Assembly (NCBI GenBank): GCA_016195985.1
Contig: JACPYP010000011.1
Span: forward strand, 1-64,000
Source: Acidobacteriota bacterium
GTDB taxonomy: Bacteria > Acidobacteriota > Holophagae > Holophagales > Holophagaceae
DNA length: 64,000 nucleotides
Reading direction: 5' to 3'
Positions 1,116 to 63,913 of this stretch are shown piece by piece; the stretch's first letter is position 1; the number at the start of each line of letters is the position of its first letter. The notes under the pieces are model-generated. The model was not told where the DNA came from and did no database searches. It saw only the letters and a program-made list of their open reading frames with translations. The position numbers and the translations under genes are program-made.

Positions 1116-4100
1116 TCAGTAGGCCTCCATTTTCCCTTGGGGAAGGATGTGGATGTGGCTGTCATGACCACCACTGTTATCAGGTTTTATTGAATCTTTA
1201 ACCCCTTGTGTTTGATCCCATTCACCCAGAGGAACGGTGTTCCCATCCATCAGATCTACTTGGAATTCAGTGAGGTCCAGATTTGCTCCTGGCCGGTCCG
1301 TGACTCCATCCCAAAGTAAGTCCCGAACGGCGGAATGGAATACGGCATCGGTGCTGAAAATATAAGTGTTTGTGGGCTGGTCATATACTACATTGCTATC
1401 CCTAAGGTAAAATCCTGAGCCAATGTAACTACCATCCGCTTTCCAATTTGTGGTGGTAACTGCCGCTAATCGGTCCAATCCTTGACGCGCAGAATAGATC
1501 CAGGCTGCAAGTTTTGTTTTTGCAGGTCCACTCACTGCTGGGTCTGTATTCAGTGCCTGATTGAAAATTCCTCTCACCGTCGAATCCATGAAAACCGTTC
1601 CCGATTGGCTTGGGTTTCCATTCGCCAATGCAGGTGCGAGTTCCCTGTAGCCCATGTGGTAGATGTCGAATGCCTCTCCTCTTAGGTGTTCGGCATGGTG
1701 AGGAGTGTTCCGCCCATGTTCCAGGGTAATTTCGTTGACAGGCCCAAGCAGGGTTGCATTATTCACCGAGCCAAGGGCGCTCGCATTTCCCATCACCCAA
1801 GAAAGCATCGCCGCGTTGGTCTGCATCTTTACCAGGGGACTTCCCAATCCAAAGGTGTAGGGCATGAAATCTCGTGCGTTATAGGTCGGCACTAAGTTCG
1901 TTGCCCCAGAGGAGTTGAAATCCAGGTACTGATTCACCTTGCCCTCGAATGTGTACCAAAGACGGAAGCTATAGGCCATGCGTCCATCAGGGGCGGGAAC
2001 CAGATTGACCCCGGAAGGTGTACCGTCAGGCCCATACACAACTACCCTCCCATAGGGAATCTGCGATGGTTGCGTCATGGTTACGCGAACCTTGTAATAC
2101 AGATACTTATCCAAATCAATCCAATTGGTCGCCGTCAGCCATGCTAGGCGGGTGCTTTCTCGGCTGGCTTCGTTGGGGATGGAAGACGCCGAAAATCCAT
2201 CCAAAGCGTTCTGCTGTGAATCGTACTCCACATGGGTGGGATTCCTTGGATTGGAGTCCAGGAAAAAGGTGCTCGATGTCGCCAAGGGTTCTGGGGATGT
2301 CAGAGTCCCAAGGACATCCTGCACATACTCGTCTTGATGAAGGTAATCCACATAGAACCGGAGCCTCACAGAGATCCCCGTCACCTGGCCTTTCCCCGGC
2401 ATGCTGTCCTTTGGAACACGGAGCACATAGTAACGATGCCGCCGATTGACATCCCCCTGCATCGGGATAGAGATCCGGGCCTTGGCGGGACGACCATTCC
2501 CGTCGAGACAGGCTTTGAGAGTCCCTCCCGAATATTGAAGCGCGGGCTCCTCAGGATATGTTTCAATCTCGCCACCAACATTGACTACGCCAAATACTGT
2601 GGTCGATGTTGTTGAGGATGTGGTTGCGGCAGCCGCATTCAGTCCCCGATTAGCGGCCAATTTCAATTTCCCACCACCACCCATCAGCGAAGCCTGAGCA
2701 GTGGGTGCATCAGAGGTGATCTGAATTCCGGTGATAAACACATTCCCGTCTGGCTGTAATGCCAACTTTGGATCTTGGAGCCCATAGCCCAAGTCATCCA
2801 TGACGCGCCAGGTATTGGTGTCGGGATCGTAGAGTTCTGTTTCAGTCGGGAATCCCTTCTGATAGGCCGTGCCTGATCCATCCATGGTTTGGAAGGTGAA
2901 CCCACCCACCACAAGCACCTGGCCGGTGGGAAGAAGCAGAGAGGCGTGGCCTGATCGGGGCCATTTCATGCTCGCGGCTGCGGTGAAGGCATTGGTCTTC
3001 GGATCGAAGATTTCCACCGTGTTTGTAGGAGCGTAGTAATCATTCCCATTGATATGCGCCACTGCGGTGGAGGCACCCCCGGCGATGAGTACGCGTCCAT
3101 CCGCGAGGGTTGTGGCGGTGGCAGCCGCCCGTTTATTAATCATTTGGCCGACCGGCGTAAATCCGGACTGCGGATCATAGAGGGTGGCGCTGTTATCAAA
3201 ATTGGCGTCAGGCGTTGGGGGCAGAGGGTATTGCCCGATCCACCCGCCCAAGAGAAGGGCCCTTCCATCCTGCAGGGTCGTTGCGGCGGCATCCTGCCCG
3301 ATTCCCAAATAGGAGCCAGGAACCGCAAGGTTCGGAAGCCCGATGCCAGAGGTTGAGAGGGCGCTGAATAGCCCACCGACTGAATCGAAGAGCGTCACAG
3401 TGCTATGCGCAGCATCCGGCGCATCTCCTCCCGCCAAAATGGCTTGTCCATTCCCTAATGAGGCGCTTGTTCCGGCGACGTGATATGCCCTGGCCCCCAT
3501 CCAGCCCGGAACGGGTAAATCCACTGATGGGCCTGGAAGGTTTTGGAATGTTCCACTCACTGGGTCATATACCTGAGCAAAAGGCAGAGGTGTCCATGTT
3601 GTCGGAGCGGGTAATGCATCATTAGACCAATGGCCCACCCCGTTGGCAATAAGCACACGGCCATCCTTCAGCAGTGTGGCCGTATGGCCGCTGCGACCTG
3701 CCGAAACAGACATAGAAATAGCCTGCCCCTTTTCATCTATGACAGTGTAGTGGGTTTCCACCATCGATCCGGTGGGTGAAAAGGTTTGAGTGCCAGGGTC
3801 ATAGAGGTAGCAATCACTCCGATAATTGGCGCCATCCCAGCCGCCCGCGATGAGGATCTTGCCGTTCGGAAGAGCCGTGACCGAATAGCCTTCCCTTTTC
3901 AGGGCGGCCGGCGCTTTGTCCTCAAGGGTATCGACGCTCGATGTGACGATCACGGCGGCGGAGCCCTGGTATGCGCCGTTCGCGAGGCTGGTTGCCTTCA
4001 CCTCGTAGGTTCCAGGACGGGTAGCGACAAAAACACCTTGAGAATCGATGGCGGCTTTGGAATCTGTGGCGACGCTCCAGGTGACGGACTGATCGGCCAG

Positions 4101-59876: not shown

Positions 59877-59887
59877 GTGTCCACGCG

Positions 59888-59937
59888 GCCTAACCCTCCG
59901 CTGAAGTCGGACCCCACCTGCATTGCCTTCCGCTCTT
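59888..59937 (+). other. attC site A, left half
   Basis: R'' box GCCTAAC at 59888-59894, spacer CCTCCGCTG, then AAGTCGGACCCCACCTGCA. This arm pairs with the right half at 61289-61328 (TGCAGGCGTGGTCGCTT, spacer AACTTC, GTTGGGC), with extrahelical bases on one arm as in genuine attC sites. The IS110 element sits in the loop. Confidence 0.75.
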
Positions 59938-60197
59938 GTATGTTTCCCACGTCCGGAGCCTTTCGATCATCAGATGCTTCTGACGGCCGGAAGGAGGTCC
60001 GTGTTTCAAACGGGGGGATGGTGCCGATTCCGTTCAGGGCGCTGAGATAATCGCCGAGAGAGAGATTCAGCCCATCCCCCTTCCCGTGGCACGCCAGAGG
60101 ACCGGTGACAACCTTGGTTGACTTGCCGCATTCGCAAGAGTGGTCATGGCGCCCACGTTTGAAAACATAGGCTTTCCCGGACGGAATGGGAGGCCCC
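59938..60197 (+). ncRNA. Candidate bridge-RNA region of the IS110 element
   Basis: IS110-group elements encode a structured bridge RNA in the non-coding DNA upstream of the transposase, which pairs with target and donor DNA. This element has about 260 bases in that position and very little after the gene. I have not folded it and assign no exact ends. Confidence 0.3.
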
Positions 60198-61288
60198 ATG
60201 CAGAAGCAACCCCCACCCCACTCCCTGTTCTGGGCCGGTATCGACCTGGCCAAGGCGACCTTTGAGGCCGCTCTATGGGGGCACGAGGAATTCCGGACGA
60301 TGCGCGGACGTTCCTTCCCCCGAGGCAAGGAGGGCGCGAGCGCCCTCCTTGCCTGGTTGCGCGAACAGGCCGGTCCGGGCGGTCGCATCGGCCTCGTCAT
60401 GGAGGCCACCGCCACCTTTGCCGAGGAACTGGGCACCTGGCTTCTCGACCTGGACCCCGGCCTGCATGTCGCCATCGTGAACCCCCTCCAGACCAGCGCC
60501 TTCCTGCGCTCCCTGGGCCTGCGCAACAAGACCGACAACCTGGATGCGAAGGCCCTTGCCCACTACGGAGCCGAGCGCAGGCCCGTCCCCTGGGAGAAAC
60601 CCAGGTCCGAACTGGCCACCCTGAAGGACCTCGCGCGCGTCCGCATGGACCTGGTGCATGCCCGGACGGCAATGGCCCTGCGCCTGAAGGACCATGCACG
60701 GGCCTCGAAACCGGCGGCGAAGGCCATGGCCAGCGTTATCCGGACGCTGGATGCGCAGATCAAGGTCCTGGAAGGCGAGATCCGGAAGCAGCTCCAGGCC
60801 CATGCAGCGTTGGCTCAACAGGCGGATCGCATGGATTCCGTCATCGGCGTGGGGCTCCTCACTGCCGTGACGGTCATGACGGAGCTGGGTGATCTGCGCC
60901 GCTTCGCCCGCAGCCGTCAGCTCACCGCCTTCGCCGGGATGAGCCCCCGGCGGAAGGAAAGCGGCACCTCCGTCCACGGCAAGCCCCGGCTGTGCAAGCA
61001 GGGGAGCACCAGGGTGCGTGCCGCCCTGTACCTGGCTGCCAGCGCCGCGGTCCGGTTCAACCCGGACATGAAAGCCCTCTACGACCGCCTGCTCACCCAA
61101 GGCAAGGCAAGGCGAGGCGACTGGCTCTCGGTGCGGTCATGCGCAAACTTCTCATCCTCATGCGGGCCGTCATCAAGGCCGACCATGACTGGGTTCCCAG
61201 CGCCCGAACCCCCTGAAGGAAATGCATCGTGCTACCTTGACGGCGAACTGACAACCTCTCTCAACATTTCGCTACCTCCGCTCCGCTC
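59938..61288 (+). mobile_element. IS110-family element inserted in attC site A
   Basis: The element lies between the two attC halves. Its left end probably starts at GTATGTTTCCC, because the same string starts the second IS110 remnant at 63281. The right end is placed only roughly, before CATCACCTCGGTGCAGG. About 260 non-coding bases precede the transposase and about 70 follow it. A TCCGCTC string occurs on both flanks. IS110/IS1111-type elements that target attC sites are known. Confidence 0.6.
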
Positions 61289-61343
61289 ATCACCTCGGTG
61301 CAGGCGTGGTCGCTTAACTTCGTTGGGCCCTCAGCCATCTTAG
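60198..61343 (+). CDS. IS110-family transposase, frameshifted near its C-terminus
   Basis: Starts MQKQPPPHSLFWAGIDLAKA, with GGGAGG just before the ATG. The RuvC-like DEDD residues are present: D16 in AGIDLAKATF, E in LVMEATATFAEEL near 69, and two aspartates in TDNLDAKALAHYG near 112-115. The C-terminal transposase_20 domain has GVGLLTAVTVMTELGDLRRF and the catalytic serine in ESGTSVHGK near 256. At 61099-61113 the motif AAGGC occurs three times; removing one copy restores the usual end GKARRLALGAVMRKLL to a stop at 61216. As read, the frame instead runs on to 61343 through attC sequence. So a 5-bp slippage insertion has probably altered the last 40 residues. Confidence 0.82.
   Translation: MQKQPPPHSLFWAGIDLAKATFEAALWGHEEFRTMRGRSFPRGKEGASALLAWLREQAGPGGRIGLVMEATATFAEELGTWLLDLDPGLHVAIVNPLQTSAFLRSLGLRNKTDNLDAKALAHYGAERRPVPWEKPRSELATLKDLARVRMDLVHARTAMALRLKDHARASKPAAKAMASVIRTLDAQIKVLEGEIRKQLQAHAALAQQADRMDSVIGVGLLTAVTVMTELGDLRRFARSRQLTAFAGMSPRRKESGTSVHGKPRLCKQGSTRVRAALYLAASAAVRFNPDMKALYDRLLTQGKARRGDWLSVRSCANFSSSCGPSSRPTMTGFPAPEPPEGNASCYLDGELTTSLNISLPPLRSSPRCRRGRLTSLGPQPS
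61289..61328 (+). other. attC site A, right half
   Basis: TGCAGGCGTGGTCGCTTAAC, then TTC and the R' box GTTGGGC at 61322-61328. R' pairs with the R'' box at 59888 at all seven positions (one G-T). The next cassette begins at the TT of this box and its ATG follows 55 bases later. Confidence 0.75.
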
Positions 61344-61383: not shown

Positions 61384-63222
61384 ATGAAAGTAACAGTGAA
61401 CGCCACTCATAAATCAATTCCAAGAGGTATCAGTTTCGACCTTCCCAGTTTCTGTGTCCTTACGGGCAAGAATGGAAGCGGGAAAAGTCATCTTCTTGAA
61501 GCTATTGCTAATTCGATGTCAGTTAAGACCTACAATGATGGAGTTGAATTCACTCGGATCCATCACGTTGGTTTCAACGGTCTCAACCCGCAAGTAGATG
61601 AACAATGTGAATCAAGTCAAGTATTAGCGAATGTAAAATCCTGGTGGAATCAAATTGAAGGAATTACGAGGCACTACAAGCAAGTAATTAGCAATGGTCA
61701 GGTATTCCCGGATGTAATTACTCAGTACCTGCCACAGCACGGCCACAATCCATTGCTCCACTCCATCGTCGCTCAGGTTCTGAAGCAATCAGGTAAAAAG
61801 CTCGACGAGATCACTGAAGATGACGTGTTGAATAACATGAGTTTTATTGACATAGCTCAAAATCAGCTCTTTTTTTCTCAGTGCGCGATGATTTTTAAGG
61901 CTTATCACACGAGACAGATCAAGAATGAATTCGCCGAATTTCGCGCATCAAAGCATGGTGCTCCGGCAATTCCTTTTTTAAGTGCGGCGGACTTCCTTCG
62001 AAAATTTGGTCCGCCACCTTGGGAACTGATCAACGAAATTTTAAAACGGGCGAACCTTCCATATGAAGTTACAAGCCCTGAACTCGGAGATTATGATCTT
62101 CCATACCGACTCCGACTGGTCGACAAACAGAAGCACGTAGAAATCTCAGTGAATGATCTGTCCTCTGGTGAAAAAGTTCTCATGTCACTTGCTCTTGCTA
62201 TTTATAACACCCAAGAGGGCGGGTCGAAGCCAGAACTACTATTGCTTGATGAGCCAGATGCGCCACTTCACCCCCAATTTGCAAAACTCTTAATTGATAC
62301 ACTTCACGAAACAATTGTTAAGAAGGCTGGTGTAAGTGTCATTGTTACTACTCACTCCCCTTCAACAGTTGCCATGGCACCCGACAACTCCGTATTCGAA
62401 ATTGACCGTGATACCAAGATTCCGCGGATGGTAAGCAACGCCCACGCTGTTGAAGTTCTGACGGAAGGTATTGACTTTCTGCGTATTTCTTTTGAAAAAA
62501 GAAAACAAATATTTGTCGAGAGTAAACTCGATGTCCAGTACTTCCAAAGACTTCATAATCTGCTTCGTAGAAAGTATAACTTCACATATCAACCAATTTT
62601 TCTTGAGCCGCACAGCGGTTCATCCAACTGTAATGACGTTATCTCAATCATCGAAAAGCTTAGATCCTCTGGGAGTGACCTGGTTTGGGGAATTATTGAT
62701 TTCGACTGTAAAAATTCCACGACTGAGAACATCTTTGTTCTCGGTGACGGCGTTAGGTATGCTATTGAAAATTATCTTCTTGATCCGCTGTATGTGAGCC
62801 TTGCCCTGATTCGGCATGGAAAGAAGACATTTGGAGACTTTGGCGTAGGCAGCAAAAATGTATACACGGATGCAGTTGGCCTTGTACAGCAAGAGTGCCA
62901 AACAATAGTAGAAAATTTTCTCGCAGTTGTAGGAATCACTTTTGATGATCTATGTCCTATCGTTCTTGAAAATGGAATGACTATCAACTATCCCAAGGCC
63001 TTCTTGTTACATCATGGTCATAATTATGAAACAAAAATTCAGTCTAAATTTATGGAATTGAACTCCATTTCAAAGGGGCAAGGTGACTCCGCCCTCAAGC
63101 TTGGTGTTATGCAAGTAATCGAGGAGTTCCCCCAATTTCTACCAACAGAATTGACAGCAACTTTCACAAAGGTAATTGGGCCTAACCTTCCGCTCATCTC
63201 GTACCCTATCGCTGCGCGCTAG
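61384..63222 (+). CDS. ABC-ATPase/TOPRIM protein (OLD/PARIS-like), candidate antiphage effector
   Basis: A protein of 612 residues; GAGAGG stands before the ATG. ATPase part: Walker A TGKNGSGKSHLLEAI (28-35), signature VNDLSSGEKVLMSLAL near 259, Walker B LLLLDEPDAPLHP near 287, switch VIVTTHSPSTVAM near 322. From about 365 a TOPRIM/DUF4435-like domain follows: IFVESKLDVQYFQRL (acidic motif near 377), WGIIDFDCKN (D-x-D near 438) and RYAIENYLLDP near 463. ATPase plus TOPRIM in this order is the OLD architecture; ATPase with DUF4435 is that of PARIS (AriA plus AriB, sometimes fused). Such proteins are nucleases or RNases that act in phage defence. The gene is AT-rich and its last 14 codons lie in an attC. 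No partner gene is certain. Confidence 0.82.
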   Translation: MKVTVNATHKSIPRGISFDLPSFCVLTGKNGSGKSHLLEAIANSMSVKTYNDGVEFTRIHHVGFNGLNPQVDEQCESSQVLANVKSWWNQIEGITRHYKQVISNGQVFPDVITQYLPQHGHNPLLHSIVAQVLKQSGKKLDEITEDDVLNNMSFIDIAQNQLFFSQCAMIFKAYHTRQIKNEFAEFRASKHGAPAIPFLSAADFLRKFGPPPWELINEILKRANLPYEVTSPELGDYDLPYRLRLVDKQKHVEISVNDLSSGEKVLMSLALAIYNTQEGGSKPELLLLDEPDAPLHPQFAKLLIDTLHETIVKKAGVSVIVTTHSPSTVAMAPDNSVFEIDRDTKIPRMVSNAHAVEVLTEGIDFLRISFEKRKQIFVESKLDVQYFQRLHNLLRRKYNFTYQPIFLEPHSGSSNCNDVISIIEKLRSSGSDLVWGIIDFDCKNSTTENIFVLGDGVRYAIENYLLDPLYVSLALIRHGKKTFGDFGVGSKNVYTDAVGLVQQECQTIVENFLAVVGITFDDLCPIVLENGMTINYPKAFLLHHGHNYETKIQSKFMELNSISKGQGDSALKLGVMQVIEEFPQFLPTELTATFTKVIGPNLPLISYPIAAR

Positions 63223-63275
63223 TGTCCTCAAACAATTCTGCTATCAGGTTCCCGCAGCAATAGGGCCGGTTAGCT
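63180..63275 (+). other. attC-like site B at the end of the ATPase-TOPRIM cassette
   Basis: GCCTAAC at 63180 is an R'' box within the last codons of the gene. CCCTATCGCTGCG (63204-63216) pairs with CGCAGCAATAGGG (63253-63265) in 12 of 13 positions, and GGTTAGC at 63268 pairs with the R'' region with one bulge. Length (96 bases) and position fit an attC, but the spacers are very unequal (17 against 2-3 bases). Confidence 0.5.
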
Positions 63276-63280
63276 TCACT

Positions 63281-63850
63281 AGTATGTTTCCCTGTACCTG
63301 AGCAGGATCCCCATGACGCCCGAACGCGCGGAACCCAGGGACCTGATTCGTACCCGGACAAAACGGATGCGCCTCCAGGTCACCCTCCGGCTGCGGCTGG
63401 AGGATGCCCAGGGGCGGACGGGCCATTCCGCCTGCAAGGCCCAGCAGAAGGTCCTGAAGGCCCTCCAATCCCAGGTGGCGGCCCTCGACAAGGCCATCGA
63501 GCGGCAGCTCCACCAGGTCGCGGACCTGGGGCATGCCGTTGACCTGCTCACCACGATTCCCGGGGTGGGCAAGGTGACGGCCGCCACGTTGCTGGGCGGG
63601 GCCGGAGATCTCCGGGCGTTCAGACGGGGGCGGCAGCTGACCGCCTTCGTCGGCGTCTCCCCACGACGCTATGACTCGGGCAGCAGTGTTCGAGGGCGCA
63701 CCCGCATGTGCCGGATCGGCGGAGCCCATGCCTGGACAGTGCTGTTCATGGCCGCCGTGGCTACCAGCCGCACCGCCACGCCGCTCGGAGACTTCTAGCT
63801 TGCGGCGCACCCCTTGCGGCCTTGGCCCGCGCTGGGGCCATGCGATCATT
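63281..63850 (+). mobile_element. Remnant of a second IS110-family element
   Basis: It begins with the same GTATGTTTCCC string as the element in attC A, but only about 20 bases later enters the second half of a transposase, so most of the left end and the DEDD domain are deleted. The right boundary is not clear. GTTAGGC at 63902-63908, just before the next cassette gene, may be the R' box of an attC whose left part was lost. Confidence 0.45.
63313..63798 (+). pseudogene. IS110-family transposase, C-terminal fragment
   Basis: About 161 residues. It holds the helical linker (KAQQKVLKALQSQVAALDKA) and the C-terminal transposase_20 domain: TIPGVGKVTAATLLGGAGDL, RQLTAFVGVSPRRYDSGSSV with the catalytic serine, and AVATSRT. 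The N-terminal DEDD domain is absent and the end stops short of the usual last 40 residues. It is related to, but clearly different from, the transposase at 60198. It cannot be an active enzyme by itself. Confidence 0.75.
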
Positions 63851-63913
63851 GGCTCGCGCAGGGAAAGCTGCTGGTACCCTTGCTTTCAAACAGACCACAT
63901 CGTTAGGCCTCTC

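Follow-up and report, generated by a model that had tools for sequence, protein, structure and literature searches.

The DNA analyzed here is a 64,000-nt stretch of an Acidobacteriota bacterium (assembly GCA_016195985.1, contig JACPYP010000011.1, positions 1 to 64,000; hereafter the window). It belongs to a 4.26-Mb genome whose closest matches are Geothrix (G. fermentans DSM 14018, G. rubra), and it carries an IS110-type element inside attC A, one of the attC sites of a cassette array. We consider it very probable that this element is of the bridge-RNA type, and that the target-binding loop of its predicted RNA is programmed with the commonest loop sequence of Geothrix attC sites. Under this proposal, the recombinase and its RNA would join a circular donor (RE-CT-LE: right end, CT core, left end) to double-stranded attC DNA at TTCCGCT[CT]CTCTC. 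Because joining to this sequence would be RNA guided, the element would enter many different cassettes at a single nucleotide and always in the same orientation, and it would leave both integrase-binding ends of the attC site in place. In related elements of the genus, the target loops would have been redirected to two other attC positions or to non-attC repeats. From sequence, we infer that the RNA would be expressed and that the element would recombine.

An attC site interrupted in its loop

attC A spans 59888-61328 on the forward strand, from GCCTAAC at 59888-59894 to a GTTGGGC that ends at 61328; these are the limits given by the original prediction, which rested on the letters of the sequence. 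Its left half (59888..59936, forward strand) was assigned from sequence and from blastn matches to the attC sites of the array. It runs from R'' (GCCTAAC) through the L'' side and the left stem into the loop as far as TTCCGCT[CT], and an attC covariance model matches it at 59885. The right half (61260..61328, forward strand) resumes in the loop at CTCAAC and continues through the right stem to L' and R' (GTTGGGC); it begins at 61256 instead if the shared CTCT is counted with the attC half. Since the left flank retains TTCCG-CTCT (to 59936) and the right flank starts CTCT-CTCAAC (from 61256), the element occupies 59937..61259 on the forward strand, or 1,323 bp with a CT core, its ends being ambiguous within CTCT (59933-59936 / 61256-61259). 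These ends were set by comparison with uninterrupted attC sites and with other left-end and right-end copies. The right boundary first proposed, near 61289, lies about 30 bp too far to the right; the real one is at 61256-61259.

The original prediction held that an IS110 element had entered the loop of an existing attC, the halves of which pair once the element is removed. Both parts of this claim are borne out. Once joined, the flanks of attC A restore a complete attC, which can be aligned gap-free with attC sites of the same array (90% identity over 117 bases and 88% over 114), and the two halves pair on its bottom strand. A consensus hairpin built from ten Geothrix attC sites has 21 long-range pairs and a loop of about 49 nt, within which the insertion point falls. 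The fold energy of the single joined attC A is no better than that of shuffles (z 0.26) and is uninformative, so the placement in the loop rests on homology and on the attC consensus. Given this placement, the R''/L'' and L'/R' ends of the site are therefore intact.

The recombinase, the predicted bridge RNA and its guides

The recombinase is encoded by an open reading frame at 60198..61343 (forward strand). It carries the Pfam domains DEDD_Tnp_IS110 (PF01548, E 1e-20) and Transposase_20 (PF02371, the serine domain, E 3e-24), passes the NCBIfam model NF033542 (177.5 bits versus a cut-off of 140), and shows homology with IS621 and ISCro4 that extends over 300 residues (E 4e-38). Between the left end of the element and the ATG at 60198 lie 261 nt of structured noncoding sequence that folds better than its shuffles (z -3.38). 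We place the predicted bridge RNA at 59950..60180 (forward strand), its extent being approximate. A consensus of six relatives gives a shared two-arm structure, with the stems of a target-binding loop and a donor-binding loop, in which, for 21 pairs, one or more of the sequences differ at both paired positions. Of the two arms, the first corresponds to the target loop and the second to the donor loop.

The target-binding arm, located from the fold and the consensus, is predicted at 60013..60080 (forward strand) as a stem, GGGGGATGG/CCATCCCCC, with an internal loop. On the same strand, its putative left guide, UUCCGUU (60028..60034), lies 5' of the right guide, GAGAGAG (60056..60062). The left guide agrees with the target TTCCGCT by six Watson–Crick matches and one G-U, and the right guide pairs with [CT]CTCTC at 7/7 positions. 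Scored over 7+7 positions in a limited register, with G-U at half weight, the target loop matches TTCCGCT[CT]CTCTC at 13.5/14 (13 Watson–Crick plus one G-U), whereas the window's 7,192 other CT sites include none that matches these guides as well. An earlier scoring scheme (10+9 positions, free offset, G-U as a full match) was dropped as too permissive, with up to 21% of controls as good in the weakest case.

The second arm supplies the donor guides. The left donor guide, TGACAACCT (60106..60114, forward strand), is identical to the right end of the element, TGACAAC[CT], at 9/9 positions; the same 9/9 identity is found in the element's own subfamily (type 1), in a sister type 2 and in a further relative, G048. 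The likely right donor guide, AAAACATAGGC (60162..60172, forward strand), was picked by inspection, and its reverse complement resembles the left end TATGTTT.

The original prediction had proposed that a guide in the noncoding region would match the joined flank and, more generally, a conserved part of attC. The loop match supports the first proposal, and a tally of 141 distinct attC sites from loci of six or so Geothrix genomes supports the second, since the sequence specified by the guides is the commonest one at that place: TTCCGCT is the most frequent left target (58 sites) and CTCTCTC the most frequent core plus right target (79 sites). In the host genome, the guide-specified 12-mer has 30 near-matches, 13 of which lie within attC sites. 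Genome-wide, the plain count is not above that of a reversed control (30 versus 27), and thus only the attC share is telling.

Repeated insertion and changed targets across the genus

Relatives inserted at unrelated sites were what the original prediction had named as evidence against targeting. In a DNA search of 47 genomes of the genus for further copies of the element's left part, the eight copies with a preserved left end instead all sit at the same attC nucleotide and in the same orientation, in five genomes (two each in G000, G001 and G008, one each in G009 and G041) and in eight unrelated cassettes. The 200 bp upstream of these copies are 44-56% identical by gapped global alignment, which is near chance for unrelated DNA, and their attC halves are 76-98% identical. 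The three intact type-1 right flanks begin CTCTCTC. No type-1 copy outside attC was seen in the 47 genomes. The eight copies reflect separate insertions, one per cassette, rather than the copying of a single insertion.

The proposal is tested most stringently by more distant relatives, which carry other guides and sit at other targets. The type 2 element of G. fermentans (G008) shares the donor guide and has the ends TGTATG...GACAAC; its target loop, UUUGUGUU / CACAAAG, matches at 12/14 the non-attC repeat in which it sits, TTCGTGTC[CT]TCGTGG. The G002 element (47% identity) lies between L' and R' of an attC site and has the predicted guides UAACUUC / UAACGAU. The G017 element (38%) lies on the L'' side at CGCTCAA[CT], and its predicted guides, CGCUCAA and GUCCGAG, score 14/14 with a right target taken from the attC consensus; the sequence assumed for this purpose, CGCTCAACTCGGAC, occurs in 66 of the 141 attC sites. 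For the G075 element, which lies in a non-attC repeat, the guides match at 13.5/14. Six of the seven elements share one left-guide register. When the guides of the seven were scored against all their targets, each scored best on its own except the type-1 guide of G008, which gave 14.0 for the window's target and 13.5 for its own, both being variants of a single site. The protein tree supports the pairing of type 1 with type 2 (99/98), of the G017 element with the G075 element (100/99), and of the G002 element with IS-B, a second IS110 copy in the window. The type 1/type 2 sisters have different targets, as do the G017/G075 sisters. Taken with the guide and target comparison, these pairs show that three lineages target attC, each at its own position (loop, L'/R' spacer and L'' side), and that two of the lineages have a sister on another target. 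Such target switches would have followed one another in an order that we infer rather than observe.

One alternative is that the recombinase recognizes the single-stranded hairpin into which attC folds, and not the sequence of the site, in the manner of the integron integrase. attC bottom strands do fold, and the insertion site does lie in the loop of a hairpin-forming sequence. However, what the guides match is linear sequence, on both strands, the type 2 element (recombinase 62% identical) sits in a non-attC repeat with its guide changed correspondingly, and the other attC lineages insert at stem and spacer positions, not in the loop. We therefore regard recognition of the fold as improbable. 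A slightly poorer prospect is that one ancestral insertion was copied along with a cassette moved by the integron, so that the copies would not be independent targeting events. Cassettes move with their attC, so that an element inserted in the loop might be carried along; yet the unrelated upstream sequences and differing attC halves of the eight cassettes already contradict this for these copies, and guides and targets change together between lineages. That an ordinary IS110 with an unrelated target landed in attC by chance, although IS110 elements are common and attC sites numerous in Geothrix (39 in the host genome), is refuted by the repeated site (8/8 left ends at one nucleotide) and disfavored by the control sites, none of 7,192 matching the guides as well.

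Several observations weigh against the proposal of a bridge RNA programmed for the attC loop. The registers were derived from the very sequences that were then scored, and the control counts are therefore indications rather than strict probabilities. Pairing of the left guide fails at the second core base (CA versus CT). Guide matches are weaker for the G002 element (11/14, with 12 of 4,952 controls as good) and for G048 (11.5/14, with 13 of 5,436 as good), and the right target of the G017 element had to be taken from the consensus because its right flank is not assembled. Finally, the window copy is frameshifted and lacks a 3' segment that relatives keep. Relative to the type-1 copy T1_G001, its recombinase goes out of frame after about residue 306 because of a tandem duplication of 5 bp, GGCGAGGCGA (61111-61120), which alters the C-terminus. 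Near 61213, the copy is missing a 3' region that contains a long inverted repeat and is kept in G001, G008 and more distant relatives. This copy is probably no longer autonomous and, given the frameshift and the lost segment, may be dead.

A broader and more tentative reading goes further. Changes in the bridge RNA may have re-guided Geothrix IS110 elements onto three attC positions, making cassette arrays a standing home for several RNA-guided lineages, and the loop lineage may leave attC recombinable and thus ride on moving cassettes. We consider this reading somewhat less likely than not. The bridge-RNA proposal itself would be relevant in several respects. First, it would link two programmable systems, integron cassettes and bridge-RNA recombinases. 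Second, a natural series in which each guide fits a separate part of a single conserved multi-copy site would show how target choice evolves in IS110 elements. Finally, these elements would offer a ready-made set for testing re-guiding, and for testing whether loop insertion blocks or spares cassette mobility.

Known systems and neighboring features

It is useful to contrast this element with those already known to target attC. The original prediction was right that such elements exist in the wider family, but they are of the IS1111 type (PMC11187229), whereas the window's is of the IS110 type and lies in the loop. The established IS1111-type elements have a downstream RNA and target one attC end (PMC11187229; PMC11616780), and in the group comprising ISKpn4, ISPst6, ISPa21 and ISPa25, RNA pieces match both target strands (PMC11187229). 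Shared with that group (PMC11187229) are a DEDD transposase of the wider IS110 family, a fixed attC position and RNA guiding, the last being predicted for the window element. By comparison, the guides of the window element lie upstream rather than downstream of the transposase, its bottom-strand match comes first rather than the top-strand complement, and its target is the attC loop (8/8 left ends) rather than an attC end. The subterminal inverted repeats of the IS1111 group were not found either: no word of at least 6 bp is shared between the left 40 bp of the element and the reverse complement of its right 42 bp.

Its features are instead those of the IS110 type, namely the DEDD and Transposase_20 domains, a long upstream noncoding region, the guide order and a donor loop matching its own right end. 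IS621 and ISEc21 likewise have an upstream guide RNA (PMC11208160; PMC11187229), and in IS621 the target loop occupies the first arm and the donor loop the second, as in the RNA predicted here (PMC11208160). However, IS621 targets REP elements (PMC11208160) and ISEc21 targets IS3-family genes (PMC11187229), not attC. No IS110-type element in attC was described in the open-access literature searched, a scope that omits most subscription papers; there, Geothrix and integrons were co-mentioned solely in a sewage survey of class 1 integrase. Among plasmids, no relative exceeded 60% identity, the best-ranked reaching 35%.

Shortened type-1 copies occur in G041 (locus L045, 2180-2300) and G009 (L044, 2640-2780), both of which keep the left part and the RNA region. 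Their deletions end exactly at the attC CTCT, and in G041 the sequence at the junction, GGCGAC[CT], is similar to that of the donor end, GACAAC[CT], as though internal sequence had served as a right end. A second attC in the host genome holds only the first 37 bp of a type-1 element (L070 1256-1415, C25:1308-1344). The long inverted repeat missing from the window copy is GC-rich and, in relatives, lies between the transposase stop and the right end (L046 ~580-740, L042 ~430-600, L047 ~3580-3760).

The second IS110 copy, IS-B, is a gutted element at 63281..63900 (forward strand) without the RNA region and the N-terminal half. It had been described as lying beside attC B and as supporting repeated targeting. 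The copy exists, but it lies inside attC B, between L' (TTAGCTTCACT; L' side 63264-63280) and R'. On the forward strand, attC B up to L' is at 63178..63280 (GGCCGGTTAGCTTCA[CT]; covariance model and sequence), and its R' end is at 63901..63909 (CGTTAGGCC). IS-B shares 78% identity with the G002 element, and both occupy the L'/R' position; attC was thus hit again, though by another element and at another position rather than by the element of attC A. Further remnants of this L'/R'-targeting subfamily occur in the host genome (L005 8977-9101, or C18:67476-67600, and L070 520-780 on C25); one of these has its right end (ACCACAT-CGTT) joined, at the loop, to the left half of an attC site.

attC sites are abundant across the 47 Geothrix-group genomes and have a conserved long loop; the covariance model finds them in 46 of the 47, with 39 in the host genome and 94 in G002. 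A search for an integron integrase beside the window's array found none near the window. The strongest matches in the host genome are partial and stop bearing (C18:629153-631478 and C25:140-542), and that on C18 adjoins a short attC array, which leaves the window's array with no integrase nearby. The cassette that follows attC A (window 61384-63222) encodes a 612-aa AAA ATPase (AAA_21/AAA_15, OLD/AbiEii-like) and is possibly a phage-defense cassette.
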